A stretch of 64,000 nt of DNA from Cheilinus undulatus. Lineage: Eukaryota; Chordata; Actinopteri; Labriformes; Labridae. A model generated the notes under the pieces. It saw nothing but the letters and a program-made list of their open reading frames with translations, was not told the DNA's origin and did not search any database. Below, piece by piece: positions 3,311-26,600 of this stretch (positions are counted from its first letter, which is position 1; every line of letters starts with the position of its first letter). Location: contig NC_054867.1 in NCBI RefSeq assembly GCF_018320785.1, forward strand, positions 20,604,855-20,668,854, given 5' to 3'. The position numbers were made by a program, and so were the translations under genes.

Positions 3311-4554
3311 CACTATATTGCCAAAAGTATTTACTCACCTGCCTTAACTCACATATGAACTTAAGTGACATCCCATTCTTAATCCATAGGGTTTAATATG
3401 ACGTCAGTCCATCTTGTGCAGGTATAACAGCTTCAACTCTTCTGGGAAGGCTTTCCACAAGGTTTAGGAGTGTGTTTATGGGAATTTTTGACCATTCTTC
3501 CAGAAGCGCATTTGTGAGGTCACTCAGTGATGTTGGACGAGAAGGCCTGGCTCTCAGTCTCTGCTCTAATCCATCCCAAAGGTGTTCTATCGGGTTGAGG
3601 TCAGGACTCTGTGCAGGCCAGTCAAGTTCATCCACACCAAACTTTCCCATCCATATCTTTATGGACCTTGCTTTGTGCTCTGGTGCACAGTCATATTCGA
3701 AGGAGCCATCCCCAAACTGTTCCCACAAAGTTGGGAGCATGGAATTGTCCAAAAATCTCTTGGTATGCTGGAGCATTCAGAGTTCCTTTCACTGGAACTA
3801 AGGGGGCAAGCCCAGCTCTTGAGAAACAACCCCACACCATAATCCCCCCTCCACCAAACTTTACAATTGGCACAATGCAGTCAGACGAGTACCATTCTCC
3901 TGGCAAACACCAAACCCAGACTCGTCCATCAGATTGCCAGATGGAGAAGCGCGATTGGTCACTCCAGAGAACGCATCTCCACTGCTCTAGAGTCCAGTGG
4001 CAGCATGCTTTACACCACTGCATCTGACGTTTTGCATTACACTTGGATGTTTCCATGGCTTGGATGAAGCTGCTCAGCCATGGAAACCCATTCCATGAAG
4101 CTCTCTATGCACTGTTCTTGAGCTAATCTGAAGGCCACATGAAGTTTGGAAGTCTGTAGCAATTGACTCTGCAGAAAGTTGGCGACCTCTGTGCACTATC
4201 CACCTCAGCATCCACTGCCCCCGCTCAGCCATTTTACATGGCCTACCACTTCATGGCTGAGTTGCTATCATTCCCAAGCGCTTCCACTTTGTTATAATAC
4301 CACTAACAGTTGACTGTGGAACATCTAGGAGTGAGGAAATTTCACGACTGGACTTGCTGCACAGGTGGCATCCTATCACAGTACCACCCTGGAATTCACT
4401 GAGCTCCTGAGAGCGACCCATTCTTTAACAAATGTTTGTAGAAGCAGTCTGCATGCCTAGGTGCTTGATTTTATACACCTGTGGCCATGGAAGTGATTGT
4501 AACACCTGATTTCATTATTTTGATGGGTGAGTGAATACTTTTGGTAATATAGTG
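3311..4554 (-). mobile_element. Full-length Tc1/mariner element with decayed transposase
   Basis: The outer ends are inverted repeats: CACTATATTGCCAAAAGTAT on the left, and on the right the complement of a near-identical motif ending ATATAGTG at 4554. The TA dinucleotides at 3309-3310 and 4555-4556 match the TA target duplication of Tc1/mariner insertion. The 1,244-bp length is typical for an autonomous copy. The transposase lies on the minus strand and is broken by frameshifts. Confidence 0.93.
3393..4421 (-). pseudogene. Tc1-type transposase, frameshifted
   Basis: The minus-strand frame starts at 4421 (MGRSQELSEF) and includes a DNA-binding stretch with QSTVSGIITKWKR. The catalytic region shows LWSDQSRFSIW (first Asp), EYDCAPEH where an Asp-bearing motif is expected, and SPDLNPIEHLWDGLEQRL (last acidic residue). 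It ends at 3393. The span of about 343 codons matches the usual length. The reading falls into at least two frames, overlapping near 3690-3780, so no active enzyme is encoded. Confidence 0.9.
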
Positions 4555-7500: not shown

Positions 7501-8840
7501 ATTAAAAAATCCTCAAAATGAAATACGTTTCCAGTGCATGATATGACAGAGTACTGTCATTTTAGATAAGGGCTCCGTCACAGTGAGTGGTCTGGTTGTA
7601 AATGGAAACAGCGGCTCTGGACGACAGAGAAATGACTGAATGTAGACATCACTTAAATCCACTCAGGTTGTGTCTATTTTCCGGCTCCTCTCTTATCCTC
7701 TGAACCAGGAATAAAAGCAAACACAACCGCTTACAGGGGCAAGAAATGCAGGGAAAATAATAAAAAAAAATTTCATGAAATATTTAGTAGTTCTATACTC
7801 CCTTATTGCCTAAACTATGACATTTTGCCTTGACTTGACTTTTTTTTAAAACACTTTGCAAATATTTTAGGGCAATTTGTCTATTTTTCTTTTTTTAAGT
7901 GTAATGTTTGATATCTTTATTGTAAAGTTTATACAGTGCAACTTTTACAACTCTTATGCACAAAAGACATGGCAAGAAAATAATAACAGCAAAACTACGG
8001 AGCCCCTAAAGGGACATTGGCAGAAAAAATTAAAATGTAAGTTTCTTTTGCTCACAAAATAGACTTTCCCATGAGCACAGGAAACTTATATTTTAATTTT
8101 TTCTGCTAGTGTCTTACTTGGGACTCTGTACAAAACATAGAGAGTAAGAACATCTTGTCTAGAACTGGATGGGAACAAATTGTGAGGATATTGTGCATTT
8201 TTCATGTCTTTTCTTTGACCTCTATCATGGTTTTACTTGCGTATTATTTATGCCAAACAAGCTGTCAAGACTAACTTAGATGTAGAATTAAAAAATGTAT
8301 ATTTATAAAAATAGTCCATGAAAGGTTTGTAAAAAATGTCATCTTTTCAAGATGTTTCCCTTTTTGAGCCAAAACCTGGGGCCTGGGGCCATATCAGGCA
8401 CCCCCAAAAGATAATCAAATTTAGAAAATTTGAGTAGGAAAACAGATGTGGTTTTTAGGGCATCTTTTGTCTTTAAACCCCTACAACTATCAAATCAACC
8501 CCAAAATGACCAAGAAAACAACATTTTTTTTTATAAGGAATGGCTTCGTGTTTGATCCGTTGCTTACAGCTGTGAGCTATTTCAGGTCAATATGATGCAT
8601 GATAAGCATGCACTTATCAGTCCAGTCCTAATTAAATATGCAGTTTTCTTTGTCAACTTTTCACTTCAGGCTATTTTAGAATGTGATTTTCCTGCATGAG
8701 AAACAAAACAAAAGATCAGCTTTCTCCATTTGTTTTTCACCAATCAGGACACAGTATATTAGCATCAAACCTAGTGATGGACAACATGGCAGTTCCTGAA
8801 ATATGTAGCAAAAATATTAAGATATATATATAGATATAGA
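4555..8840. other. Intergenic DNA upstream of cd8a copy 1
   Basis: About 4.3 kb without a recognisable exon. It contains A/T runs (for example poly-A near 4970-4986) and a TATATAGATATAGA stretch immediately before the duplicated cd8a block at 8841. Several CACTTCCT-like motifs near 6800 could be ETS sites, but nothing supports a promoter there. Confidence 0.5.
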
Positions 8841-9266
8841 TTCAACTTTTTGCTTGTGCTAAAACCCTGCATGGTTGTATTTGCAAAAAGTGGGCTTCTT
8901 TGTACATAGACTTAGTAACGTGCGCTGTGTCGTGTCTTCACTTCCTCAGCAGCCTACATATTTTGCACGGCTGTTTTTGTGTGTCAGTATATAGTGGATA
9001 AAGTTGGGCTGTCAGAAGCTTCAACTAAAGGCAAAGGTGTTGTGTGTAGATCGGTGGGCTCAACTTCAAACATCTCAGAGACCACGACTGTGCTGCAGGA
9101 GGTCTCTGCAACACTCTGCAATGATCTGCAATGATCTCATTTGACGTGGCAGAGATGAAGGGTACAGGTGGGACGTGGTTTGATATCTCACCAAATGATC
9201 TCCTGCCTGGCTCTAACAAACACCACAAAGACAAGTTTAACAGCTTTTACTGTCTGCAGGATTAAA
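8841..9266 (+). promoter_or_regulatory. Upstream region and 5' leader of cd8a copy 1
   Basis: This stretch is almost identical to 18590-19015 and is the only upstream sequence the two cd8a genes share. It includes CTTCACTTCCTC near 8937 (ETS-like core), a TATATAG motif near 8989 as a possible TATA element, and a GTGGTTTG motif near 9175. The coding start is set at 9267, where the hydrophobic signal peptide begins. An in-frame ATG at 9195 also exists and would add an N-terminal extension, which I consider unlikely. Confidence 0.5.
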
Positions 9267-11017
9267 ATGGAGCAAAAATGGATGCAGATTCTGGTGATCC
9301 TGGTGTTTTACCAAAGTAAGTTTGACCTTTTACTTGCCCGTTTACAGCATACATAAGTGTCACAGTGTTTCAGGATTTGTGTTTTGGTCATGTGTTTTTG
9401 GCTGCTGAGTTATATTGCTGCTGTCATCTTATTACATTTTTCAGGAATAAACACTGGAGCTTGTGAAGAGAGAGTGAAGCAGGGACAGCTGGTTAACATC
9501 TCGTGTAGTCTTACAGATTCTGGCTCTACCCTTACCTGGTTTAGAGTACTGGACACACATGCTATGGAATTCATTGTATCATACAGCACCCATGGGGATG
9601 TAAAGACATCATCCACTTTCTCTTCCATCTTCAGTCACGGAAAAAGCAAATTCATTCTTACATTGAACTCATTTGACAAAACTCGTGACAGTGGCATTTA
9701 CAGGTGTGCATTACGGAAACAGTTGAAATTGGAGTTTGGTAAGGTTACTCGACTGGTCGGAGGTGAGTTTTGTTGGATAATGGACATGATAATGAAATGA
9801 TGAATGACGATCAGACAAAGTTCCCCTCACAATCTTCTTCTCTCTTAAGAAAAAGATGAAGTCCAAACAGAAGCACCAGTGGCAACCATCGAACCAACTT
9901 CATGCACCACTGCCAAACCATGTGTCTGTGACAAGACAAGACATCAAGGTGAACATTTCAAATCACAATATGATGTGTTGCTGAACCCTGTGCCTTCTAA
10001 AGTGAAAAGATGAGCTTGAATTTCCCTTGAGATTAATAAAGTATCTATGTATCTAGACCACGCTTATTCAGGGGAAACAAATCCTTCCATGCTTTGTTCT
10101 TCGATCATATTGGGTCCACTCGCTGGCAGCTGTGGCCTTCTTCTTCTACTCCTTATCATATCCACTCTGTACTGCAACAGTAAGTCCTTCTCATTCTTTA
10201 AACAAATACAAGTTTTAATGTTGCTTTATAATGTCTTGTATGAGTTTTGAACATTTCTGCAAATTCTTCCCAGTCAGTTTTTCCAGCTTCTCTTGATTTA
10301 AAATTGTAAGAATTTGCAGTGTTTTGATAACGTCTTTATTTTCCCTAAGAAATACGAACACGGAGATGCCCACACCATTATAAAAGAAAGTAAGATGTTT
10401 CCTTTTTTTCTTTTTCTGTTATATTATTTTTCTGTAAAGGGCTGTAGCCAGAGACAACAGTGGTAATAAGTGAATAAGCTGACTTATTGAATTGTTTTTC
10501 TAACTAGACATGTAGTAATCACTCTGCTGCACCATGCATTTTGTTAGTATTTTTTATTTTAAGAATAAAGAGGTTCTTTAAAACTCTGAAACAAAACTGT
10601 AAAAAATACACTTCCCTGAGATATATACTATATATAAATGATCTTCACCGTCTTCTTCTCAGTAAATTGTTAAGCAGTTGGAACTCTGATAAAGAGTGAG
10701 ACTAGTGTTTTTAATTGTGTTAGTTATCGTTTTGTTATTGAAGTAGTCCGCTTGAGTCAAACACAAAAACATTTTCTTATTACTCATGAACGGTTGATAA
10801 TACTGTCAGTCTTATGTTGCAAAAGCAAGACACAAATTCTATCCAAAAAATTCGGTTTGTGTTGGATGTGGCTACAGCCCTGTATTCTTTTTGTATTTCA
10901 AACAATCAATGAGCTGTTAATTATTATAAGACTATTTATTTTTGTACCTATTTTATCTCATACAGACCACGGCCGATGCCTCCTGGAAAACAGATGATGA
11001 CCAACAGACGGATATAA
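9267..11017 (+). CDS. cd8a: T-cell surface glycoprotein CD8 alpha chain, tandem copy 1
   Basis: A membrane co-receptor of cytotoxic T cells that binds MHC class I and recruits Lck. Exons are 9267-9315, 9445-9762, 9850-9948, 10072-10179 (alternative start 10057), 10350-10389 and 10966-11017, all with GT/AG ends. The product is about 221 residues (226 with the longer exon 4). Exon 1 encodes signal peptide MEQKWMQILVILVFYQ. Exon 2 encodes one Ig V domain: NISC (first Cys and an N-glycosylation sequon), WFRVLD, DSGIYRC (second Cys), and a J-like LEFGKVTRL. Exon 3 is a stalk with TTAKPCVCDK, whose Cys residues could link chains. Exon 4 is the membrane helix ([14 protein letters not shown]). Exons 5-6 are a basic tail with RRCPHHYKRK; the fish CXH motif replaces the mammalian CXC Lck-binding site. 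cd8b is the alternative, but the tail and signal favour cd8a. Confidence 0.9.
10012..10055 (+). mobile_element. Retroposon 3' tail abutting cd8a exon 4 (copy 1)
   Basis: The sequence around GATTAATAAAGTATCTATGT resembles the common 3' tail of fish non-LTR retroposons (ATCAATAAAGTATCTATCTATC type). It ends directly at the candidate exon 4 acceptor and also occurs in copy 2, so it predates the duplication. Confidence 0.6.
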
Positions 11018-11750
11018 AGTGACATGGACGTTCCTTTGCACTGAAAATGAGGCAGTGTTGATTCATTATAAGAAGTTTTTTTTTTGCTCTTTATTTTGAG
11101 GGTAAACATTTTTTTTGCAGTCTTCAAAGACGGTAGCTGTTCAAGAATTTAATATATATGGACTACTTTAGAAACCAGTTTCACAGAGTTTTAGTTTACA
11201 ATGCTGCGCTGTTATCACACTCAAATTCATGTGTCTATTCATCCAGTCACCACAGTAAATGATGAGTATACCCCACAGAAAATCTTAGTAAACAATGTTT
11301 AAAATTTAGCAAACTACACTTTATTTTTAGGTCAAATGTAAAAAGAAGTCTTTACGCTGGTTTTTGCTTTGGTGTTATTTGATTTATATTCCTATACGAT
11401 TTTGAAGTTTTCATCAGATTTATAATCATTAAATACCTGCATTTATTGCATCAGTGTCACTAAATCTAAGGATCTTTAGTTTAGTTTTTATTGATTTTAG
11501 ACCAAAGCTGCTGCTTTGTTTTTTAACGTTGCATTTTCAGCTGAGCTTTGACAGTTATTTCTTGCCGGTAAATCTGATTTAGTTTTCATCCATATTAGCA
11601 GTTATTTCAGTTCAACTTATGCAAAAAAGGAACACAAAGAATTTTCTTTCTTTCAGTTTCTTTTTTCTTTGAATTATATTTACAGTCCTGAGAACTTTTT
11701 TCAATCTCCACACTTTTGTAACTGGAAATAAAATATACAACCTCTCAGAA
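11018..11750 (+). other. 3' untranslated region of cd8a copy 1 with poly(A) signal
   Basis: This follows the TAA stop at 11015-11017. A canonical AATAAA lies at 11727-11732. The region is conserved with the matching part of copy 2, including the signal and the sequence after it. The true cleavage site is not visible. Confidence 0.6.
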
Positions 11751-12029
11751 AAGTATGTGTTCATTTCATTCATATCCTTTACTGTCTTCTTTGAGGGGGA
11801 AAAAACATCAAACCTACTCGCTCATATTGGGTCTTAGTGCAGAAATACACTGTAAGTTTGAGCAAAAACAGTTGTTTCATTCGGAACATTTGTTTCATAG
11901 CGAGCTCCCGGGTCAAAGGAAGTGAACTCTTGCAGTCTTATGCAGTGTGAAAAACCACCAACATACAAGTAGAGAGATATTTTCACACTGGAGATTCTGT
12001 GACAAGTTATTTTAATTTGATAGGTATCA

Positions 12030-12262
12030 GCCCCCCCATGACCCCCAACGGGATAAGCGGTAAAGAAAATGATGGACAAAAAAAGACGCTGTTAATGTCA
12101 ACATGATAATAGATTTCTACAAATCAGTGTCAATTAAATAAAAACATGTAAGGTAAAATAAGTGGTTGCAGAAATCTTCACCCCCTCTAAAGTGACCCAG
12201 ACCTTGGTTTGATTTATAAAATCAATAAAAGGGTAAAACACCCAATAATTTTATAGGCACTG
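12030..12262. mobile_element. SINE tail plus right end of a Tc1-type element
   Basis: ACCCCCAACGGGATAAGCGG is the end of a SINE, and TTTTATAGGCACTG ending at 12262 is a Tc1-type terminus. Both match the larger composite at 23107-23523, so this is the truncated duplicate of that insertion. Confidence 0.7.
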
Positions 12263-12319
12263 TACATGTTAAACTGGTCAAAACTTGATCAAGGTTGAGA
12301 GCAAACCTTACCATGTGGC

Positions 12320-12418
12320 TTATCTCTTGCCTCTTTTCTTTGTAGATGTTGACACAACGTCTGAGCTCAGCGGAGAGGATAGCTGGCCGCTGGCAGATGG
12401 ATCTTCTGCATGGTGTTT
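12320..12418 (-). pseudogene. Duplicated terminal exon of calpastatin
   Basis: A copy of the cast last exon (23581-23679). It begins after a TTTTAG acceptor with [19 protein letters not shown] and ends KKRGKR then TAA at 12320. It is intact and in frame, with a few substitutions relative to the main gene (VVSTS against VVPTS, KKRGKR against KKGGKR). It is labelled pseudogene because the set of cast exons around it is incomplete; it could still be transcribed. Confidence 0.7.
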
Positions 12419-12628
12419 CTAAAATAGAGCAAACTTTATTTAAAAGGAAATAGAAATATGTAAAAAAAAAAAAAGAAACAACAGCTTTGCATTCAATGTT
12501 TAAACAGAATCACTAAAAATCTATAATCTTATCTTTATTTTTAATCGTAGCCCATTTCATTCCTTTAGAATTAATGAAAGAGCATAGCTGATTGGTTGAG
12601 GTCTTCGTGCAGCAGGCAGTTTGCTTAC

Positions 12629-12658
12629 TTTAGACCTTGACTTTGACTTGCTCTTGCC
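12629..12658 (-). pseudogene. Duplicated 10-codon calpastatin exon
   Basis: The 30-base exon encodes [10 protein letters not shown] between a TTGTTACAG acceptor and a GTAAGC donor. It is identical in product to the main-gene exon at 23950-23979. Confidence 0.65.
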
Positions 12659-13171
12659 CTGTAACAAATTTGACAACTTGGTTAGGCTCTACAGCTGTTT
12701 GTCAGTCCAGGAGGGGTGACCAAAGATACTATTTGTTTGTCAGCAACCAACAGAGGGCGCCATCTAATAATGTAACTGAGCATCATGGACACTCTAGGTG
12801 CCTTTAATATGTTCTAAATTTCATCATTAGAGTTCAGCTTTAAAAAAGATTTAACACTACATATGTATTGATCAAACTGAAGAGAAATGCTAGATTTTAT
12901 AGGTTTTATTCTTCTCTAAAAAAACGACTGATTAAAATTATCTTTACATCTAAATATGTCTAGGTTTAACTGTAAAGGTCTCTTAGGTCTTATGAGGGTT
13001 GATCAGAGATTACTGCAGAACAGAAACAATTGATTAGACACTGTCAGAGATTTGTTTTGCAATGATTGTCATCATCACACTGAAATTAGTCATAATTAGT
13101 TAATAATCCAGAACATTTTGCCCTTTATTGGAACATTTTATACACCCTGATCTCACACAGATTTTTTTTAC

Positions 13172-13258
13172 CTTTGGTTTGTCTGTCTTAGATTTAAACT
13201 CTGGGACGTCTGGGAGCAGAGTGCTTGCCATAGCATCCAGTGCAGGACCAGGCATAGG
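13172..13258 (-). pseudogene. Duplicated late A-type calpastatin exon
   Basis: 87 bases with intact splice sites. It encodes a product starting [20 protein letters not shown] and ending SKTDKPK, the same residues as the main gene at 24494-24580. Homology with the main gene stops shortly upstream, near 13411, where a transposon end is inserted. Confidence 0.7.
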
Positions 13259-13411
13259 CTGAGGAATATTGAAAAGATAAACAGCATAAATAATGAAAAA
13301 CACTTGTCAAATATTATCAGCTTTTACAGATTTCATGCATAGCAGAAATAAAATGTAAAATCTGAAACAACCGTGTATGAAAGCAAAATGTCCAGCTTTT
13401 AAATAGTACAT

Positions 13412-13615
13412 TTTTACAGTCATGGACAAAAATATTGGCACCCCTGGAACTTTTCCAAAAAATACAACATTTCTCCCAGAAATTGTTGCAATCAACAAAT
13501 GTTTTTGGTATACATGTGTTTATTTCCTTTATGTTCATTGGAACAACAAAAAAAATGGAATATATATCATGTAAAATCATAAAAAGATTGTAATTTTTAT
13601 TTTGGAGGTGCTAAT
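13412..13615. mobile_element. DNA-transposon fragment interrupting the duplication
   Basis: CAGTCATGGACAAAAATATT followed by GGCACCCCTGG is a terminal motif common to fish DNA transposons. A weak inverted counterpart (GGAGGTGCTAATGGTA) lies near 13605. It sits exactly where similarity to 24733 ends, so it either inserted at or mediated that breakpoint. Confidence 0.5.
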
Positions 13616-13973
13616 GGTATCTTGGAGTAGAGGGCCCTACAGCAAAACCATGAAATTAACACTGATATTTGTATAGAGGCAGACCCTAGGTCTTTCTCAT
13701 TTCACATTTTTGTTTCCTTCCTTCCTCCGTTCGCGTCATTTCCTTGTGTCTTAGCTCCACCCAGCGAGAAATTGAAAGAGATGCAAGGAAGAGACAGGAG
13801 GAGAGAGGAGGCACAACTTAGTGAATGAGAAATCCTTCACTTCACAGCGTCAGTCTGAGCGCCGTCAGGTACTGACGATGGGATGATAGCTGATTCACGC
13901 TAGCCCAAACATTAGCAGACCTGTATTTAAAATCATTTCAAAAACCTTCGCGATGACTCACCATAAAAATGGT

Positions 13974-14012
<39 letters not shown>

Positions 14013-14739
14013 GCAATAAAATGTATTAAGAAAAGCATTCTTTATATTACATATCTGATTTTCAGTGGAATTACTTTGGTTTATAAACTCACCCATTTAA
14101 TCATTGTCAATATCCTCATCTATGTAACCTACTGATCCATTTTTATCAGCTGATAACCTAGGCTCTCTTTCATATAATCTGTTCAATAATCCAGCACAGA
14201 GCTCTGTGAGTTTGTTGATTTTTTCAGTTAAACAGGAACAATAAACTATCTTCTGCCTGAGTGAGGCCGAAATTCTGTCAGATTACATCATCCTATATGA
14301 AGTTAAAACATAAACATATTTGTTATTTAACCTACCTTTGTTTAAGGGTTTTATTTAAAAAAAAAAAAAGTATAAGAATATAAACAGTCACGAACTGTGC
14401 AGAGGTGCGGCTTTTCTGGCAGATGCCGCGCCTCCAATCCAATCACATTGTACCCTTGGTAAAAAGACTTCCGTGGAGGATACACCAGTGCTTCCTCGCT
14501 CAGCGCTCCTCCAGGAGCTGCTTCCTTCCTCGATCCTCGCCTCCTCCAGGAGCATTTAAGGAATTGGAAAATCTGTCATCATGGTGGAAGGAGAGCGATT
14601 TCCAGGTCAGTTGAGGAGAGAGAACGCGAGGATGGTCAAAACTTTATTTTGAGAAGCATCCCCTGATCATACATGTAAAATTTGAAGGCAGTTGGTTGTT
14701 TCATATGAGAGTTACACCCACTTCCTGTGTCATGGCGTA
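13616..14739. other. Non-coding DNA between duplicated cast pieces
   Basis: It contains a TA dinucleotide microsatellite and a G+C-richer patch at 14400-14620. No cast exon is found, although this interval corresponds to the part of cast lost in the duplicate. I see no confident gene. Confidence 0.45.
13977..14007. repeat. (AT)n microsatellite
   Basis: About 15 uninterrupted AT units. Confidence 0.95.
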
Positions 14740-15055
14740 GGATCAAAATGGCTGCCATGGCCACTGGGGCATCTGTTAATGAGTCATGTCAATATGAGGA
14801 CAGATATTGATGAGTTCAGGTGAAAATCAGAGCATCATAGGTTCAAAACAGCAAGAATCATACAGAAATGACCCACCTCCTGTCTGAGGTGAAGGATCAA
14901 AAAGGCCGCCATGGCCACTGGGTCATCCAGGAAAGAAACATGTAAATGTAGGACCAGATATTGAGGACTTCAGGTCAAAATCAGAGCATGATAGGTTCAA
15001 CACACTAAGACAAATGCAGAAATGACCCATTTGCATCACTTCCTGTTGGCAGAGG
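14740..15055. repeat. Tandem repeat, two units of about 154 bp
   Basis: GATCAAAATGGCTGCCATGG (14741) recurs as GATCAAAAAGGCCGCCATGG (14895). The following motifs (AGATATTGA, CAGGT-AAAATCAGAGCAT, AGAAATGACCCA) recur in the same order. Partial flanking units may extend it on both sides (ACTTCCTGT motifs at 14718 and 15038). Confidence 0.75.
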
Positions 15056-15989
15056 AGGGCGCCATGATGAACTTTTTTCATGTGGACGTGTTCAGTGTAA
15101 TCCTGTCAGTTTTCAGTGAATAAATGTCCAAAAAGAGACCTTTTTTGAAATTTGGGCAGAGCTGGTGGACTTCCTGTTGGGATTTTGGCATGAGTCCAAG
15201 AGGCTTTTTTTGTAGGTGTGGTCATGGTGCATTTCCTGACCGAAGATCATCTGCCTAAGTTCAACGGTGTTTAGGGGCTGAATTTTTAAAGTGAGAAAAG
15301 TGAAAAAAGTGCCAAATTCAATTTTGATTTGTCAGAAGGGGGCGGAGTTATGAATTTCTGATCTTAGTGCTTGATTTAATAGAGGTTCCATGTGTGATCA
15401 TCTGAGGGGCCATTTTTGAGTGAGATGAATGGAACCTCCAGAATATGAAATTTTTCACAAGGATCTAACAAGCCACCAAATTTGGTGAGTTTTGGAGCAT
15501 GTTAAGGCCCCCAAAAATGTAAAAGTTGTGACAGAAAAAAAATCATTCCTACAGATATGACAGGGATCTCGCCCTGGTCAGTGTGTGAGCCCTAATTATT
15601 CAGGAAGTCAACAAATTGCATCTTAAAGGCTCAATTCACCCAAATTACAAATTATTCCCTGTTTTCATAAATATGTTCAAGTTGTGAATTATCCATCTAC
15701 TATGTTTATAATAACAACCTTAAACTTGTGAGTTTTACTCTAGTTATGAAAAAAACTTAAAATCTTCCTGATGCCTCTTTATGACTGACAAAAGCAAACA
15801 AGATCATCAAAACTGATGTTTTTGATAGAGTTATTAATAATTCCTTAAAACTGGGTCAGACTGGGTCATTTGGTTTAGTTCATTTTTCACAGAGCTGTAG
15901 TCAACCAAAGTAAAGCTTGGCCAACTGACATTACACCCAGACACCGAACTCATCAACTGAGGGGGGAGAAAAATGTCATAGCTCCATCA

Positions 15990-16480
15990 ACCTTATAGTT
16001 AAGGTAAGGGTTAGGACTCCGAAAGTTGAAAGCTGACCTGCAAAACCTGATAACAAACAGCATAGCACCATTAGCGGTCTAATCTATGTAGATAATATAG
16101 CTACGTAACTAATGTAGGTACATAGCAAACATAGCTAAAGCTAGGCTCACAAAGCAGCTACGTAAGGTACATAACTATGTTATATATGTAGCAAAGTACA
16201 TTTTAGATACATTTGCCAAAGCAAAAGACTAACTTGGCTACAGATAATGGAACTATGTAGCTAACATAGCTAGAGCTGAGCTATGTAAGGTACATAGATA
16301 TGTAATCTACATAGCTATGTTAGCTTCAGATAGGTTAGCTAAAGCTCAAATTGCTAAAGCTGACTTAGCTACACTAGCTTGTTGTAATGCTAGCAAAGCT
16401 ATGCTTGCATCGCTAGCATAGCTTTGTTAGCTTTAGCTAAAGCTAACAAAGCTAAAGTTAGCCACCATTTGTGTAACTAC
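15990..16480. repeat. GCTA/TAGC-rich low-complexity cluster
   Basis: A long run of short, degenerate units such as AGCTAACATAGCTA, CTACGTAA and GCTTTAGCTAAAGCTAAC, many self-complementary. Related clusters lie at 42310-42600, 47980-48260 and 57270-57380. Confidence 0.75.
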
Positions 16481-16482
16481 TG

Positions 16483-17303
16483 CAAATAATAACAATTTAT
16501 GTGTAATTTAATCCCGGATTAGACCACTTACCTTTTTTTCTGTTTTATCTATGAAAGGTTAACCTTGCAAAGCAAATGGATATGCCTGTTTCCTTGTTTT
16601 CAATGGCGAATCCATCTTGCAAAGCTCCCATCTGAACCGTTTGGGCCCGGTTAGAAAGTGACAGGACCAATCAGCTACGAGGGGCAGTACTTTCAGGTGC
16701 AGCAGAGTCCTGACGTAAACAAGCAGCAGCAAAAGCTGGTGCAGTTATGGAGGAAGAGATTAGCGTGGATGCTGCTAAAGCACCAGTTTTATCAGAACTT
16801 GATAACATTTCTTTGTTAAAAGAAGAACAAAGAACAGCAGTGAGTTGTTTTCTTTTAAAAAATGACAAAAGTCTAGTGCTTACATGTCTATAGTCGCCAT
16901 GTTTCGCATCATTCCTCACTAGCTGCGCACGTGCAGCTCAATAATTGGCCTGTAGAGATGTGATAGACAGAATGTTAATCCAATCACACTCCGAGTGTTT
17001 TTCAAATCCTCTTTTTTTTCAAAACGTTTCCTATTGAAGCTTTCCCAAATGGATATGTGAAACAAATCCATCTGGCGTGTCAGGTTAATGAAAGGTCTCT
17101 TGGTCTTTAATGTTTGCAATGTGGTTATTTCATTAATGTAACTGCCAGACTATTTTATGAACAAAGTTGAATTTTTAAAAATATCCTAAACATGGAATAT
17201 TTTGGCCTGACAAATTATAACTTTTCCTTTCTGAGATATACAGTTTGTCAGATGAATGATCTTCAGCCAGACCACTCTCGATCACACCACAACTAGTGTA
17301 ACT
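16483..17303 (+). mobile_element. 821-bp insertion with RecQ-helicase-like remnant
   Basis: Absent from the source segment near 42582. The insertion is flanked by a 10-base direct repeat, GTAACTACTG (16473-16482 and 17304-17313), where the source has a single GTAACTATTG. Inside, a plus-strand frame at 16747-16893 reads MEEEISVDAAKAPVLSELDN and then LKEEQRTAVSCFL. This resembles the N-terminal lead-in of RecQ-type helicase repeats found in fish genomes, then stops before any Walker motif. The insertion is well supported; the family assignment is tentative. Confidence 0.55.
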
Positions 17304-18137
17304 GTAACTACTGACATGTAAAAATCAAGATCAAATGACTGCTTTTGTCTCATTTTGTACTGATTACAGTTAATAAGACCCATTTTTTTAGTCTGAGTAG
17401 TGTAACTTTATCAGCATTAAAACTATCCAGACAGCATGCAACATGTATTTACCAGGTTTAATGAAACATAAGTCAGCAGATCAGGATGCAATTAAATATT
17501 TTGAAGGGCCATGACACATCACTGTCTCTCCTCTCTGCTCTGTGTCTGTTACATTAACGTTGGGTTTTATTGAGATGATACAGGGACTTGATAAAGGGGA
17601 CTAATTAAAATGCATTTACTGACCGGTGAAAAAAAAATGGAACCAGGGGTATGGCTGTTTGAAAGCAGTGACACTTGCAGCACCTCTTCAACAGAAACAA
17701 AACCTGCATATACATACAGGTCAAGTTGTGGATGTGTTGTGTTGTGTTTAAGTTCCTTAGAGCGTAATCACTGTGAAACAATCAGAAAATACCATTCTGT
17801 GTGACTGCCTTCCCTCTGCTGCTGTCTCTGTATAATTTTGCGATCTATGAGATTTTGGTCAGATGAAAGCTTATCGACCAACTAATTAAACAACTGATTG
17901 GGGGGTGTCAGCCCTATGTTTTTTTATCCGAGTGCACGTACTTCAGGCTACTCTTGAATAAGTCACTACCACAGTTCCTAGTCAAAAATGTCAGGCTACA
18001 CCACTGAAATGAGTATCAGTAAAACAAAAAGTGTTCATTTTGAGACAAGTCAGTGTGACACCAACAAACACCAGGAAAGCAAAGCTGCTCTGTGAATCAG
18101 AAAAGCTGATGAGGAAGTGCATGTGAGTAGAACTGAC

Positions 18138-18218
18138 CATATCTTCAAGTCTGTACCCTGGAGGCAGCGTTTCTTTTCTTTCTCCATATTTCTCACTCTT
18201 CTCTGAGGTGACTTCATG
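18138..18218 (-). pseudogene. Duplicated B-subdomain exon of calpastatin
   Basis: 81 bases, acceptor CTGCAG and donor GTCAGT. It encodes [20 protein letters not shown] then GYRLEDM. It is a copy of 43414-43494, with C to Y and ED to KE changes in the inhibitory loop. The frame is open. Confidence 0.7.
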
Positions 18219-18330
18219 CTGCAGCGCATGCAAAACTAACACTTACTCAACGCTGCTCCATGCTGCAGCTTGAAGCAATCATCACTAGCTTAGCTTACAT
18301 ACAAATGTTATCCCTGTGGCTATGCTTTAC

Positions 18331-18406
18331 CTCTTTGACCTCTGGCCCTGTGTAAACTGGCTTCTGGAGGACAACAGGATCAGCTGATGGTAGAGTGCTG
18401 GCGAGT
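18331..18406 (-). pseudogene. Truncated copy of calpastatin exon at 43607-43708
   Basis: Keeps the 3' three quarters of the exon ([18 protein letters not shown], donor GTAAAG) but is cut at 18406, losing the acceptor and the DPFDAL start. The breakpoint lies inside the exon and marks the edge of the duplicated block. Confidence 0.75.
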
Positions 18407-18589
18407 TCCAGTTTTCATCTTTTTTAAGGTACATTTACAGGTCTACAATTAGTACAGAAAGATAAAGGGACAAAATACACTACAGATTAGCTGCTGAACT
18501 GCTTAGAAGGCTTTTTTGCTCAAGAGCAGATTTAAATCTGTTTGAATTATTTCAAAAAAGAACATGCCAAATTAAAGTACTTCATGACA

Positions 18590-19015
18590 TTCAACTTTTT
18601 GCTTGTGCTAAAACCCTGCATGGTTGTATTTGCAAAAAGTGGGCTTCTCTGTACACAGACTTAGTAACGTGCACCTTGTCGTGTCTTCACTTCCTCAGCA
18701 GCCTACATATTTTGCACGGCTGTTTTTGTGTGTCAGTATATAGTGGATAAAGTTGGGCTGTCAGAAGTTTCAACTATAGGCAAAGGTGTTGGGTGTAGAT
18801 CGGTGGGCTTAACTTCAAACATCTCAGAGACCACGACTGTGCTGCAGGAGGTATCTGCAACACTCTGCAATGATCTGCAATGATCTCATTTGACATGGAA
18901 GAGATGAAGATTACAGGTGGGGCGTGGTTTGATATCTCACCAAATGATCTCCTGCCTGGCTCTAACAAACACCACAAAGACAAGTTTAACAGCTTTTACT
19001 GTCTGCAGGATTAAA
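18590..19015 (+). promoter_or_regulatory. Upstream region and 5' leader of cd8a copy 2
   Basis: Near-identical to 8841-9266. It starts at ATTCAACTTTTTGC and has the same ETS-like CACTTCCTC near 18686 and TATATAG near 18737. Only about 185 bp separate it from the broken cast exon, so the more distal upstream sequence differs completely from copy 1. Confidence 0.5.
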
Positions 19016-20721
19016 ATGGAGCAAAAATGGATGCAGCTTCTGGTGATCCTGGTGTTTTACCAAAGTAAGTTTGACCTTTTACTTGCCCGTTTACAGCGTA
19101 CATAAGTGTTACAGTGTTTCAGGATTTGTGTTTTGGTCATGTGTTTTTGGCTGCTGAGTTATATTGCTGCTGTCATCTTATTACATTTTTCAGGAATAAA
19201 CACTGGAGCTTGTGAAGAGAGAGTGAAGCAGGGACAGCCGTATGAAATCACCTGTAGGCTTCAAAAATCTGTCTCTACCTATTTCTGGTTTAGAGTACTG
19301 GACACACATGCTATGGAATTCATTGCATCGTACGGCATCAATGGGATAAAGACACAATCATCCACCTTCTCTTCCTTCAGTCATAGAACAAGCGGAACAA
19401 TCTTCATCCTCACATTGAACTCATTTGACAAAACTCGCGACAGTGGCGTTTACGGCTGTGCATTTCAGAAACAGTCGAAATTGGAGTTTGATGGGGTTAC
19501 TCGACTGGTTGGAGGTGAGTTTTGTTGGATGACCAGTATGATGGTGTAATCATGAATGACGATCAGACAAATTTCCCCTCACAATCTTCTTCTTTCTTAA
19601 GAAAAAGATGAAGTCCAAAAAGAAGCACCAGTGGCAACCATCGAACCAACTCCATGCACCACCGCCATACCATGTGTCTGTGACAAGACAAGAGAGCAAG
19701 GTGAACATTTCAAATCACAATATGATGTGTTGCTGAACCCTGTGCCTTCTAAAGAGAAAAGATGAGCTTGAATTTCCCTTGAGATTAATAAAGTATCTAT
19801 GTATCTGGACCACGCTTATTCAGGGGAAACAAATCCTTCCATGCTTTGTTCTCCGATCATATTGGGTCCACTCGCTGGCAGCTGTGGCCTTCTTCTTCTA
19901 CTCCTTATCATCACCACTCTGTACTGCAACAGTAAGTCCTTTTCATTCTTTAAAGAAATACAAGTTTTAATGTTTTATAATTTCTTGTATGAGTTTTGAA
20001 CATTTCTGCAAATTCTTCCCAGTCAGTTTTTCCAGCTTCTCTTGATTTAAATTGTAAGAATTTGCAATGTTTTGATAACGTCTTTATTTTCCCAAAGAAA
20101 TACGAACACGGAGATGCCCACACCATTATAAAAGAAAGTAAGATGTGTCCTTTTTTTCTTTAATATTATTTTCTGTACAGGGCTGTAGCCAGAGTTTTAG
20201 GACAACAGTGGTAATAAGTGAATAAGTTGACTTATTGAATTGTTTTTCTAACTAGAAATGTTGTAATCACTCTGCTTCACCATGCGTTTTGTTAGTATTT
20301 TTTAAGCATAAAGAGGTTCTTTAAACAAGTGCGTCAGTAAATTAAAAACTCAAACAAAACTGTAAAACATACTTCCCCGAGATATATACCAAATGATGTT
20401 CTACACCGTCTTCTTCTCAGTAAATTTTTTAATGATGCATTTTGTTATTGAAGTAGTCCGCTTGAGTCAAAAACATTTTCTTATTACTCATGAACGGTTG
20501 AAAACACTGTCAGTCTTATGTTGCAAAAGCAAGACACAAATTTTATCCAAAAATTGCGGTTTGTGTTGGATGTGGCTACAGCCCTGTATTCTCTTTGTAT
20601 TTCAAACAATAAATGAGCTGTTAATTATTATAAGACTAATTATTTTTGTACCTATTTTATCTCATACAGACCACGGCCGATGCCTCCTGGAAAACAGATG
20701 ATGACCAACAGACGGACATAA
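19016..20721 (+). CDS. cd8a: T-cell surface glycoprotein CD8 alpha chain, tandem copy 2
   Basis: Exons are 19016-19064, 19194-19514, 19602-19700, 19824-19931, 20098-20137 and 20670-20721; the product is about 222 residues. The layout matches copy 1: signal MEQKWMQLLVILVFYQ, V domain with ITC, WFRVLD and DSGVYGC, stalk with PCVCDK, membrane helix, and tail RRCPHHYKRK. Three things differ. The V domain has many substitutions clustered around ITC and in the ASYGINGIKT stretch. The N-glycosylation sequon of copy 1 is lost (EITC). The J-like FGK becomes FDG. The longer exon 4 start used as an option in copy 1 is not available, because its AG is GG here (19807-19808). No stop or frameshift is seen, so it looks functional. 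Confidence 0.88.
19764..19808 (+). mobile_element. Retroposon 3' tail abutting cd8a exon 4 (copy 2)
   Basis: The same GATTAATAAAGTATCTATGT tail as in copy 1. Here the terminal TCTAG has become TCTGG, removing the splice acceptor that would join directly to the tail. Confidence 0.6.
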
Positions 20722-21625
20722 AGTGACATGGACGTTCCTTTGCACTGAAAATGTAGGAGTGTTGATTCATAATAGCAGGATTTTTTGCTCTTTATTTTGA
20801 GGGTAAACATTTTGTTGCAATCTTCAAAGTCAGTAGCTGTTCAAGAATTTAATATATGGACTACTTTAGAAACCAGTTTCACAGAGCTTTAGTTTACAAT
20901 GCTGCGCTATTGTCAAACTGAAATTCATGTGTCTGTTAATCCAATCACCACAGTAAATGATGAGTATACCCCACAGAAAATCTAAGAAAACAATATATGA
21001 AATTTAGGAAATGTAAAAAGAATTCTTTACTTTTTTTTTTTTGGTGTTATTTGATTTATATTTACATACATTTCTGAAGCTTTCATCAGACTTATAATCA
21101 TGAAATACCTGCATTTATTGCATCAGTGTCACTATATCTAAGGATCTTTAGAGTAATCGTGCAGTATTTTGAGACTTTTAGGTTGCAGGTTGTAAAAATT
21201 TTGTAAGTGCGTATGTGATTCGATGTCAGGGCCCTGACTTAAAAGCTGTGGGTAGCTTCTGGGTGTTCCCATTTCACAAACGACAATCATATGAGAACTC
21301 AAGATTAATGTTATCAGCATCTTATTTAATTTTGTGGATAAACTAAATTAAATGGTTGGTCTTTATTGATTTTAGACCAAAGCTGCTGCTTTGTTTCTTA
21401 ACGTTGAAATTTCAGCTGAGCTTTGACAGTTATTTCTTGCGGGTAAATCTGATTCAGTTTTCATCCATATTAGCAGTTATTTTAGTTCGACTTGTGCAAA
21501 AAAGGAGCACATAGAATTTTCTTTCTTTCAGTTTGTTTTTTCTTTGAATTATATTTACAGGCCTGAAAACTTTTTTCAATCTCCACACTTTTGTAACTGG
21601 AAATAAAATATACAACCTCTCAGAA
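20722..21625 (+). other. 3' untranslated region of cd8a copy 2 with poly(A) signal
   Basis: Conserved with copy 1 apart from an additional segment near 21140-21360. AATAAA lies at 21602-21607. Similarity to copy 1 continues to about 21886 and then stops. Confidence 0.6.
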
Positions 21626-23106
21626 AAGTATGTGTTCACTTCATTCATATCCTTTACTGTCTTCTTTGAGGGGGAAAAAACATCAAACCTACTCGCTCAT
21701 ATTGGGTCTTAGTGCAGAAATACACTGTAAGTTTGAGCAAAAACAGTTGTTTCATTCGGAACATTTGTTTCATAGTGAGCCCCCGGGTCAAAGGAAGTGA
21801 ACTGTTACAGTCTTATGCAGTGTGAAAAACCACCAACATACAAGTAGAGAGATATTTTCACAGTGGAAATTCTGTGACAAGTTAATTAAATTTGTCTTTC
21901 ATTTACCTTTAAGAAAACAAAACTTAGAGATTGTTCCACACATTTAAGTCCTTTCGTTATTAATAGCATCTTTTTTTACACAAACTAGAGAAAGAAAGTA
22001 CACGCTTTGAGTTTAGACTCTTTATTTAATTAGTATTCCCACATCTGAAAAATCTCACATCTCTTGACTCACACCCACACAAAACCATGAATTGACATGA
22101 TGTTTTTTTTTCTTTTTTTTTGAAAAGTAATTTGATTGTGACTTTACATTTAAGAGCCCTTTTGAAAGTACACAGTGTTCAGTTAGAGCAAAAATCTTTT
22201 CTACAGTATACAAACAAGGGCAGTTTACAAAGATATAAACCACCTCAATTCACTAAGTGCACTTTTGGACACCTGTATTTAAATTCTCTACAAGGCCAAA
22301 TACGTACAAAAGAACCTCAGAAAGTATATGGCATTTGCAAGAAGCTCTTGGATACAGATTGAAGCAGAACACCTTCTTTAAATCCTCCACATATTAAAAA
22401 ATGTAAACCATGTGTTGTCCAAAATATAAGCAAACTAAGCTGTACACTAGTGTCTTAAAGGCATCTTAACACATCATGAGAAAAGTTGGCTTTTACGTGT
22501 ACATCGACATTGCACAAACATCCCGATACTAAACACCCACTCTGTGCTGCTCCCACACAAGAAGACAGTCGCGACTTTTACAACTGAAACCCACCAGGTT
22601 TGGATACCAGGTGGTATGTTGTCATATAAGATATCTTTGTAAAAATAGAAACCGTCAGCTTACGTGGTTGTACAAGACTCTGATGAGCATAGCCTTCCTT
22701 CCTTAAACATGTTACATGTCTTCAACTTCTCAATTTCCCCACAGTCTCCTTCCTTTCTTGGGCTGCTCATCATTCCTCACCCTGCATCTTATTTTAAAAT
22801 AATTCTTTTTGCTTTATCAAAAACCTCTCATCCTTAAATACAAATAAAACTGAGCTAAACACTCAGATGTGTGTGTGTGTGCTTGTATGTGATGCAAATA
22901 TTATGGGTATGTCGAAGGTTTTTCTTTCTTCCAGTATACATTCTTGACATTTTAGAAGAATAGGGACATTTTCCAGAGAGCAGCTCCCTCAATCATGCTT
23001 CCCTTTGGCCTCGAGAACAGTTTGCGCTGGCAACCTGCAACATACGACACATTCAGCTGTAAGTGGAGAGACACGAGGATATATACTCCAAATGCTGAGC
23101 AAGCTG

Positions 23107-23523
23107 CAGTGCCTATAAAAACTATTCACCTCCTTTTATTGATTTTATAAATCAATCATGGTCAATATAATTTGGCTCTTTGACAAAGATGGGCTGCACG
23201 GCGGTGCAGAGATTAGCGCTGTTGCCTCACAGCAAGAAGGTTGCTGGTTCACTTCCCGGACAGGGCCTGTCTGTGTGGAGTTTGCATGCTCACCCTGTGC
23301 ACGAGTGGGTTCTGACCCCCAATGGGATAAGCGGTCAAAAAAAATGAATGGACAAAAAAATATGTATAGGCTATATAAAAATATGTAAGGTATAACAAGT
23401 TACATAAATCTTCATCCCCTTCAAAGTGACTGAATGACTTCACCCCCTTTAAGGTGACCCAGACCTTGGTTTGGTTTATAAAATCAATAAAAGGGCAAAA
23501 TACCAATAATTTTATAGGCACTG
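23107..23523. mobile_element. Short Tc1-type element with matching ends
   Basis: Both ends carry CAGTGCCTATAAAA as a perfect 14-base inverted repeat. The interior has the family's TTGATTTTATAAATCAATCA signature, but transposase is absent and a SINE is nested inside. It is non-autonomous and lies just downstream of the cast stop codon. Confidence 0.8.
23191..23350 (+). mobile_element. tRNA-type SINE nested in the Tc1 element
   Basis: GGGCTGCACGGCGGTGCAGA starts a well-known fish short repeat, with GATTAGCGCTGTTGCCTCAC, a GGTTCACTTCCC box and a GGGATAAGCGG tail followed by ATGAATGGAC. Confidence 0.75.
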
Positions 23524-23580
23524 TACATGTTAAACTGGTCAAAACTTGATCAAGGTTGAGAGCAAACCTTACCATGTGGC

Positions 23581-23679
23581 TTATCTCTTGCCTCCTTTCT
23601 TTGTGGATGTTGGCACAACGTCTGAGCTCAGCGGAGAGGATAGCTGGCCGCTGGCAGATGGATCTTCTGCATGGTGTTT
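23581..23679 (-). CDS. cast: cast last exon, with stop
   Basis: TTTTAG acceptor; [19 protein letters not shown] then a Lys/Gly-rich end KKGGKR and TAA. The AEDP motif recalls the C-terminal linker region of calpastatins. Confidence 0.8.
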   Translation of the reverse strand, partial: KHHAEDPSASGQLSSPLSSDVVPTSTKKGGKR

Positions 23680-26600
23680 CTAAAATACAGAGCAAATTTT
23701 ATTTAAAAGGAAATAGAAATATGTAAAAAAATGAAACAACAGCTTTGCATTCAATGTTTAAACAGAATCACTAAAAATCATTGTGTCAAATCAAGAAGCA
23801 GAAGTGTATCACATGCAGCTGTATGCAGACTCTACCAGACTCTAGAATCTTATCTTTATTTTTAATCATAGCCCATTTCATTCATTTAGAATTAATGAAA
23901 GAGCATAGCTGATTGGTTGAGGTCTTCGTGCAGCAGGCAGTTTGCTTACTTTAGACCTTGACTTTGACTTGCTCTTGCCCTGTAACAAATTTGACAACTT
24001 GGTTAGGCTCTACAGCTGTTTGTCAGTCCAGAACGGGTGACCAAAGACACTGTTTGTTTGTCGGCAACCAGCAGAGGGCGGCATCTAACAATGTAAATGA
24101 ACATCATGGACACTCTAGGTGCCTTAAATATATTCTAGATTTCATCATTAGAGTTCAGCTTTAAAAAAAGGATTTAACACTACATATGTATTGATCAAAC
24201 TGAAGTGAAATACTAGATTTTATAGGTTTTATTCTTCTACAAAAAACGACTGAATAAAATTATCTTTACATCTAAATATGTCTAGGTTTAACTGTAAAGG
24301 TCTCTTAAGTCTTATGAGGGTTGATCAGAGATTACTGCAGAACAGAAACAATTGATTAGACACTGTCAGAGATTTGTTTTGCAATGATTGTCATCATCAC
24401 ACTGAAATTAGTCATAATTAGTTAATAATCCAGAACATTTTGCCCTTTATTGGAACATTTTATACACCCTGATCTCACACAGATTTTTTTTACCTTTGGT
24501 TTGTCTGTCTTAGATTTAAACTCTGGGACGTCTGGGAGCAGAGTGCTCGCCATAGCATCCAGCGCAGGACCAGGCATAGGCTGAGGAATAATGAAAAGAT
24601 AAACAGTATAAATAATGAAAAACACTTGTCAAATATTATCAGCTTTTACAGATTTCATGCATAGCAGAAATAAAACGTAAAATCTGAAACAACCGTGTAT
24701 GAAGGCAAAATGTTCAGCTTTTAAATAGTAAATTTTTAGGTGCATTTTATGGTAAAGCATATTCTAACAGTTTATTTCTGTGTACCTTTGACTTGTCTGC
24801 ATAACCTACAACCAGCTCCCCAGACTGAGGAATAAGAGACAAGTCGTCGGGTGGTTGAGCATCTTTAGTCTCCTACAACACAGAGAAGGACAGAGTCAAA
24901 ATCTGCACGCTGGATGAAGAACTTGAGTGTGCACACAAAGAAAACACAACATAAAAGGCATAAATATAGTATTTCTTTAAAACTGAAGACATTTTGACTG
25001 GCCTGTCAAAGCAGAAAAAGCATAGTTAAGATAAGTGAACCTTTATTGACCACCACCACCACATTTCATACACAGGGTAACACTACACTCTTTACATTCA
25101 GGCACAAACCCATGGTAAATCTTACCCATACAGAGCAGAAGCAACAAGACTGTACCATTTGTTATACTATTATAAGTCACTATGAGCACAGCATAAAGAA
25201 ACATTTAACTTAGGACAAAGACAAGGGGGAAAAAATCACCACCATATACATGCTGAGCAGCCATCTGCAAAAAAATATAAACCCATAGAGATTATTTTTA
25301 AAAGCTTGAAGCATTTTTCACAATCATTTCTGTGTAACCTTCAGCTGTGGAGGTTCCATCTTTTTTGTTTCTGCTGCATAGCACACAGCCAGTTCCCCAG
25401 ATTGAGGGAGAACAGACAAGTCACTGGCTTTTTGAGCATCTTTAGTCTCCTACAACACAGAGGACAGAGAATCAAACCTGTCATGTACATAGAGGGCTCT
25501 AGTGCATGCAAAAACAAAATAAGTAACAAGCTGCTTGCTTTTAAAGGCTTCAATTTCAAACAGCAGACATGATTTGGCTCAAAGTGGTGAAAGCAGAGGT
25601 CAAACCCTAGAAATTTAGAAATGCAAAAGATTCATCTGAAACTATCAACTGAGGCCATAAATGTTCTAAGAGGCTAGAAGCAAATTCTTTCTATTTATTT
25701 TTGTGTTGCTTCCAGCTGTTAAGTCAAAGCAAACTTTAAATGTACAAAGACTCATTTAACCTAGGACAATGGCAAGATACAAAAAGACCTATCACCACTA
25801 GACTTATGTTGAAAACCAATCTGTCAAAAATATAGACCAATCATTTCTGTGTAACCTTCAGCTGTGGAGGTTCCATCTTTCCTGTTTCTGCTGCATAGCA
25901 TACAGCCAGTTCCCCAGACTGAGGGATAATAAACAAGTCACTGGCTTTTTGAGCATTTTTTTAGTCTCCTACAACACAGAGGACACAGAATCAAACTCTG
26001 CATTTACATAGAAAGCTCTAGTGCATGCACACAAAAAGTAACAAGCTGAATATAGAAATTCAAAAGATTAGTCTAAAACTAATAACTGGGCCTCAAATGC
26101 TTATGAGAGCCTAGAAGCAAATTATTGCAGCCCATTTCTGTATTGCCTCCAGCTGGTAAAGCAAAGAAAACTTCATTTCTAAAGCACATTAGATACACAG
26201 ATACAACATTCTCCCCACTGGATCAGTAAATTAATCGTCCTATATAAGGCTCAAACTCATGATTAATCTTACTTACACAGAACAGGTCTAGACTGTACTC
26301 TTTATATGAGTAATCACAAAGACCCAGCATTTATTCACTGTGAGCACAAAGAATAATCTAACTTAGGGCAGTGTCAAGATAAAAAGTGCCCATCTTCAAC
26401 AAACTCATGTTGAACAGAGAGACTGTTTGCAGAGACTGTTTCTAAAAAAAACTTGAAGCACATTTTTTGCAATCATTTCTGTGTAACCTTCAGCTGTGGA
26501 GGTTCCATCTTTTTTGTTTCTGCTGCATAGCATACAGCCAGTTCCCCAGACTGAGGGAGAATAGACAAGTCACTGGCTTTTTGAGCATCTTTAGTCTCCT

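Follow-up and report, generated by a model that had tools for sequence, protein, structure and literature searches.

Two tandem cd8a genes of the humphead wrasse differ mainly in the V exon, possibly because gene conversion spared it

We analysed a window of DNA, that is, a whole stretch of 64,000 nucleotides from contig NC_054867.1 of the humphead wrasse, Cheilinus undulatus. Positions are those of the window unless another record is named. Two intact copies of cd8a, the gene of the killer-T-cell co-receptor, lie side by side in it, and one cd8b gene is found just upstream. They are where an earlier note on this DNA, made by eye from the sequence, had placed them, and each copy has six coding exons and zero internal stops:

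9267-9315, (+) strand: copy 1, exon 1, start and leader (splice sites, translation)
9445-9762, (+) strand: copy 1, exon 2, immunoglobulin (Ig) V domain (Pfam V-set 33.8 bits, cut-off 26)
9850-9948, (+) strand: copy 1, exon 3, stalk with the CVC motif (splice sites, translation)
10057-10179, (+) strand: copy 1, exon 4, membrane span, with an alternative in-frame acceptor 15 bases in
10350-10389, (+) strand: copy 1, exon 5, tail with the CPH (CxH) motif
10966-11017, (+) strand: copy 1, exon 6, end of the tail and stop codon TAA (translation)
19016-19064, (+) strand: copy 2, exon 1
19194-19514, (+) strand: copy 2, exon 2, Ig V domain (Pfam V-set 22.7 bits, below the cut-off of 26; E 1.2e-4)
19602-19700, (+) strand: copy 2, exon 3, stalk
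19824-19931, (+) strand: copy 2, exon 4, starting at the in-frame acceptor TTCAG that is common to both copies
20098-20137, (+) strand: copy 2, exon 5, CxH motif
20670-20721, (+) strand: copy 2, exon 6 and stop codon

The protein of copy 1 is 100% identical to the public C. undulatus entry P0001 ("CD8 beta chain-like isoform X2"), and that of copy 2 matches P0002 ("CD8 alpha chain-like", 222 residues). The word "beta" in the name of P0001 looks wrong, since both copies group with teleost CD8α, in tandem with a separate cd8b gene that lies upstream. The CPH motif of the tail and the CVC motif of the stalk are found in both copies, and in an alignment of 54 sequences they belong to the columns that do not vary. 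At exon 4, the acceptor used by copy 1 (AG before 10057) corresponds to GG in copy 2 (19807-19808). The acceptor TTCAG, 15 bases further downstream, is in frame in both copies, and its use in copy 2 yields the 222 residues of P0002. This downstream acceptor is probably the ancestral one, since each of the five additional residues of copy 1 is missing in most of the 105 relatives outside the wrasses (in 84 to 101 of them, according to the residue).

The earlier note had observed that the differences between the two genes pile up in the V exon. Exon-wise codon counts, in which a split codon was assigned to the exon that holds its first base, confirm this observation, and the residue counts made by eye for each exon were correct. 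In the V exon, 25 of 104 aligned codons are changed and five further codons are gapped. The remaining exons have changes in 1/17 (exon 1), 4/33 (stalk), 2/41 (membrane), 0/13 and 1/16 (tail) codons, or 8 of 120 if pooled. The codon alignment contains four whole-codon gaps that were placed by hand, and the DNA alignment made with MAFFT contains two gaps of 3 and 6 bases. Under both alignments the gaps in the V exon are whole codons, the net difference in length is one codon, and the reading frames stay open.

The DNA differences vary along the gene. On the 5' side they amount to 3.5% in the flank, 2.0% in exon 1 and 1.6% in intron 1. The V exon differs by 16.2% (MAFFT) or 13.5% (42/312, codon alignment) and intron 2 by 13.8%, followed by the stalk exon (6.1%), intron 3 (1.9%), the membrane exon (2.4%), intron 4 (3.0%), exon 5 (0%), intron 5 (7.1% with MAFFT, 5.9% with BLAST), exon 6 (1.8%) and the 3' flank (9.6%). 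The claim that the introns are nearly identical thus holds for introns 1, 3 and 4 and less so for intron 5; it does not hold for intron 2, where 12 of 87 sites differ, 10 of them inside 9779-9799. The region of high divergence can be delimited in the alignment:

9490-9799, (+) strand: divergence peak, from base 46 of the V exon to base 37 of intron 2

Its onset is abrupt, as the preceding 128 bases (9362-9489) are identical between the copies.

Self-BLAST and alignment show that the two genes belong to a tandem duplication:

8840-18588, (+) strand: duplication unit 1, with cd8a copy 1; the interior of the adjoining calpastatin-like gene is gone
18589-43682 (end approximate), (+) strand: duplication unit 2, with cd8a copy 2 and a fuller downstream gene
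12039-13416, (-) strand: relic copy of the calpastatin-like gene, corresponding to its 3' end and differing by 5.6% from 23313-24738

Positions 8840-13416 match 18589-24738 in three pieces, and 15596-18406 match 42039-43682, also in pieces; for 13417-15600 self-BLAST gave no match within 24700-42100. From the way in which these segments match the second unit, the original unit was probably about 25 kb long, and the unit of copy 1 later lost about 17 kb of the adjoining gene. The distal pieces of the duplicated block differ by 4.4% (49/1103), 4.5% (24/539), 5.6% (76/1356), 5.3% (15/282) and 11.9% (30/253). We used two sets as a reference. The first, with 149/2998 differences, omits the last two pieces and one off-diagonal piece (49/187); the wider set, with 194/3533, adds these last two pieces to the first. 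A divergence of 5.0-5.5% was taken as the neutral age of the duplication.

The peak of divergence is seen at replacement sites and at silent sites, though for the latter it is weak when set against the wider block. With the NG86 method, the silent divergence (dS) of the V exon is 0.125 (8.5/73.6 sites) and the replacement divergence (dN) is 0.156 (33.5/238.4), compared with 0.023 and 0.033 in the other exons. Neutral sites of the V exon and intron 2 taken together differ in 19 of 164 cases, against 26 of 909 in the remainder of 8840-10349 (Fisher P = 8e-6); for the V exon alone the count is 7/77 (P = 0.011). Intron 2 (12/87) also exceeds all other gene and flank sites up to 11479 (103/1870, P = 0.004), and the silent sites of the V exon counted by NG86 exceed the distal duplicon (0.124 vs 0.050, P = 0.02). 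The flanks of the V exon (26/909, 2.9%) are less divergent than the distal duplicon, whether the first set (about 5%, P = 0.006) or the wider one (P = 8e-4) is used. Replacements in the V exon are above the distal neutral rate (0.149 vs 0.050, P = 6e-8; vs 0.055, P = 3e-7).

Where gene conversion acts together with local selection, one expects a divergence peak between flanks of low divergence (PMC3924837; this and the other papers are cited from excerpts). The earlier note had offered two causes, diversifying selection on one copy or conversion that kept everything but the V exon alike. It had reasoned that raised silent and intronic divergence in and around exon 2 would speak against selection, and part of this is what we see, in the dS of the V exon and in intron 2. 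The second cause fits the DNA better, because divergence is high at silent sites of the V exon, too, and in the first part of intron 2, and because it is lower right beside this region than in the rest of the block; diversifying selection as the sole cause is not supported. We infer that conversion has lowered the divergence of the flanks, and that the V exon was shielded from it by selection and not by chance.

We also looked at where in the V domain the replacements are. In what we call the wide loops (Cys+1 to Trp-1, 61-73, 80-86 and 105-116), dN is 0.327 and dS is 0.073, and in the framework dN is 0.068 and dS is 0.182. Replacements are more frequent in these loops than in the framework (P = 3e-5), and within the loops dN exceeds dS (P = 0.018). 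When the loop mask was shifted circularly, 0 of 99 shifts reached the observed rate of 0.265, the nearest being 0.243. The excess of dN is also nominally significant for the loops without the DE loop (P = 0.009) and for predicted loops minus the two bottom loops (P = 0.034). The clustering of changes in loops, as proposed by the earlier note, is therefore found under three of five loop definitions and not under the other two, for which the values are given below. Selection on the V-domain loops is suggested by these counts, but not proven.

Taken together, the explanation that we favour, and which we hold tentatively, is a tandem duplication followed by conversion outside the V exon, with selection likely keeping the V-domain loops different. 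The duplication would have given the two intact cd8a genes adjoining one cd8b gene. Conversion would then have kept the remainder of the gene alike while sparing the V exon, and selection likely held apart the loops of the V domain, which is predicted to grip the major histocompatibility complex (MHC). Both chains are predicted to reach the T-cell surface, to signal via the CxH motif of the tail, and to pair with each other and with CD8β. The resulting co-receptors would hold MHC class I differently, and position 47 (Thr or Phe) would be the likeliest switch.

Several results weigh against this explanation. The 3' flank is high as well (41/427), so the duplicated block is uneven anyway, and the signal in intron 2 comes mostly from the 21 sites at 9779-9799, 10 of which differ, perhaps through a single complex mutation. 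The silent sites of the V exon alone do not significantly exceed the remaining sites of the gene and its flanks as far as 11479 (P = 0.20; P = 0.054 with the NG86 counts), and their excess is not clear when the wider set of distal pieces serves as the reference (P = 0.06 or, depending on rounding, 0.03). The dN/dS of the V exon is 1.25, which is not significant (bootstrap range 0.57-3.3, P(ratio ≤ 1) = 0.28), and simple positive selection on the whole exon is not supported. As for the loops, the limits of the wide loops were drawn after the differences had been seen, and the P values are nominal, several definitions having been tried without correction. For all predicted loops (P = 0.13) and for strict IMGT-like loops (P = 0.15) the result is not significant. 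If sites are instead picked by their variability among other fishes, that is, without looking at the wrasse pair, dN and dS are similar in the most variable half (0.254 and 0.226, P = 0.46) and in the most variable third (0.247 and 0.197, P = 0.48). Finally, variation is free in the complementarity-determining regions (CDRs) 1 and 2 of endotherm CD8α, and binding of MHC is ascribed chiefly to CDR3 (PMC4848529); changes in CDR1 and CDR2 are therefore weaker as candidates for binding changes.

The V domain could simply evolve fast after a duplication, with no special part for conversion, and we consider this a serious possibility, if not a probable one. To put the pair into context, we used 120 listed relatives out of 156 matches (near-identical copies merged at 90%, names partly incomplete and some rows unnamed), of which 115 with a length of 200-260 were aligned. 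One comparison kept 6216 pairs, and a second, with a minimum of 85 columns in V and 80 elsewhere, kept 6480. Among the 20 pairs of the second comparison with a non-V difference of 3-12% and a V difference above 0, which share species and are not independent, the wrasse copies have the second highest ratio of V to non-V difference, 4.5, within the 1.1-4.9 of the 19 other listed pairs. Note that the hand-placed codon gaps give 25/104 for the V exon and not 31/98, which would lower the ratio. For example, Tautogolabrus and Labrus mixtus differ at 26/97 V sites and at 10/99 others. The two copies differ at sites which are also variable among other fishes (mean entropy 2.41 vs 1.44 bits, permutation P = 5e-5), and the V domain of CD8β is nearly as fast as that of CD8α (mean 0.43 vs 0.47 in 435 pairs from 30 species, with the larger value for CD8α in 335 of the pairs). 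Teleost CD8 thus commonly has a fast V domain, and since other close pairs of CD8α likewise change fastest there, the pile-up by itself is ordinary and not special to the wrasse. The weakness of the silent excess in the V exon fits this explanation, too. It leaves unexplained, however, why intron 2 is raised and why divergence in the flanks is lower than elsewhere in the duplicon.

Alternatively, the V exons may predate the duplication: unequal crossing-over would have joined two long-kept cd8a alleles on one chromosome, and the V tract would keep their allelic age. The excess of V silent sites over the distal duplicon is what one would expect here, although it weakens if the wider set is taken. 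In medaka, two entries that share a taxid (P0089 and P0117) differ at 12/97 V sites, at 1/98 after the V domain and at 2 in the leader, which hints at variation of the V domain within species or between strains, and in chicken there is polymorphism in CD8α, most of it in the V domain, but not in CD8β (PMC4848529). Against this, the two copies are sisters in the tree of V and in the tree of non-V sequences (support 100/97 and 99/93), and in the V tree none of the 8 other wrasse sequences (7 named, and 1 unnamed that groups with Halichoeres) comes between them. Any allele age would thus have to fall within the lineage, and we regard this origin as unlikely. An overwriting of one V exon by conversion from a third gene would account for the sharp left edge after 128 identical bases. 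It is very unlikely, as a genome-wide search with the V exon of copy 2 returned only these two places at E ≤ 0.001 and no third donor (25 candidates scored). That the assembly has laid two haplotypes end to end is hardly credible: the identity of the two units is high, but they differ by the missing interior of about 17 kb, by different inserts and by about 5% substitutions, and the public annotation places both proteins on one contig of 57 Mb, though this is probably the same assembly.

We were not able to claim a difference in rate between the copies. The private V changes of copy 2 and copy 1 are 10 v 5, 11 v 6, 11 v 5, 9 v 4 and 9 v 9 with five wrasse outgroups, that is, copy 2 has more in four of them and an equal number in the fifth, and these changes are too few. 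No partial transcripts of close relatives were found (2 candidates, none scored).

What could the replacements mean for the protein? AlphaFold2 models have a mean predicted local distance difference test (pLDDT) of 75 for copy 1 and 70 for copy 2, with about 90 in the V domain of copy 1 and 74-92, depending on the block, in that of copy 2. For both models, the top-ranked solved fold is grass carp CD8αα (5z11). Residue 47, just before the Trp, is Thr in copy 1 and Phe in copy 2, and Thr47 of copy 1 aligns with the Phe that precedes the Trp in grass carp CD8α, the residue of the MHC cavity. Among the 115 aligned sequences we find Ile (51), Val (39), Met (9), Phe (9, including copy 2), Thr (2, copy 1 and Anabas) and others (5) at this position. 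As all 8 other wrasse sequences carry Val or Ile, residue 47 looks derived in both copies, in opposite directions. According to a study of shark CD8, Phe33 of grass carp corresponds to Ser34 of human, and the cavity vanishes with this Phe, but grass carp CD8αα is still able to interact with MHC I (PMC10140343).

Two more replacements had been described by the earlier note as losses in copy 2. In the case of the N-glycosylation sequon the direction has to be reversed: none of the 105 other fish sequences and none of the 8 wrasse sequences has Asn at residue 34, hence it was copy 1 that gained the sequon NIS. The loss of the J-like Gly in copy 2 was seen correctly, as Gly115 is present in 113 of 115 aligned sequences, the exceptions being copy 2 (Asp) and Tautogolabrus (Ala). 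In chicken complexes, residues of CDR1, CDR3, the DE loop and the AA' loop of CD8α touch MHC I (PMC7719794). By analogy, the surfaces that would match these contacts differ between the wrasse copies, and a bearing on binding is a prediction. CxH is the Lck-binding motif of teleosts (PMC10768021, PMC10362645). It is conceivable, if doubtful, that there are two grades of CD8α with one signalling tail, one with the small, polar Thr47 and an N-glycan site and the other with a bulky Phe47 that resembles the cavity-filler of grass carp; αα homodimers, a mixed dimer and two αβ dimers would then differ in how strongly they read MHC class I or in the alleles that they prefer. If both chains are expressed, they would be a natural pair of CD8α chains that are alike in nearly all but the binding face, a test of the effect of the V loops on the grip on MHC class I. 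In CD8α and CD8β the V domain changes fast from one fish species to another, and the pair suggests that a single genome can retain such change.

The wrasse copies resemble teleost CD8α in their layout of V domain, stalk, membrane span and tail, in the CxH motif and in the tandem arrangement with cd8b (PMC10140343, PMC10362645). What differs is that the wrasse has two cd8a copies; among the matches listed (120 of 156), medaka is the only other species with two V-divergent rows, which are under one taxid. In common carp the numbered genes cd8a1, cd8b1 and cd8b2 have already been measured; a cd8a2 is not mentioned in the excerpts, nor is there a comparison of the sequences (PMC10991768, PMC8842664). 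We found no report of a tandem cd8a pair in a wrasse in the titles and abstracts of open-licence literature on duplicated fish cd8a. Extra copies are also seen in chicken, with 24 CD8A1 against 1 in duck (PMC10845735), and the variation of chicken CD8α is mostly in the V domain, as it is between the wrasse copies (PMC4848529). Chicken CD8A1 is described as unable to activate T cells (PMC10845735), whereas both wrasse copies retain the full tail motif. The red and green opsin genes are similar to the wrasse pair, too, being adjoining duplicates with a peak in one functional exon and low flanks; for the opsins, several species could be compared and the effect on the spectrum is known (PMC3924837), and our case draws on the DNA of one species.

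The neighbouring cd8b gene lies on the same strand as the cd8a copies:

L013 5114-7067, (+) strand: cd8b gene, with V exon at L013 5114-5566 and membrane exon at L013 6933-7067

Its V exon is 4.4-4.9 kb upstream of the window, and a further small exon carries the CxH motif as CRH. The best match of cd8b is unnamed (89%) and the best named one is Siniperca cd8b (64%); the other named matches are mostly cd8b or CD8 beta, with few under different names.

The gene adjoining cd8a on the other side is tentatively a calpastatin. The label is weak: two pieces have Pfam E values of 0.01 and 0.018, both under the cut-off, and a third piece is without a match. In self-comparison, the downstream gene shows repeated units at 24797-26655, about 0.5-0.6 kb apart and 64-79% identical. 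Elsewhere in the window, at 3393-3776 on the (-) strand, there is a reading frame like that of a DDE transposase (Pfam DDE_3, 31.9 bits).

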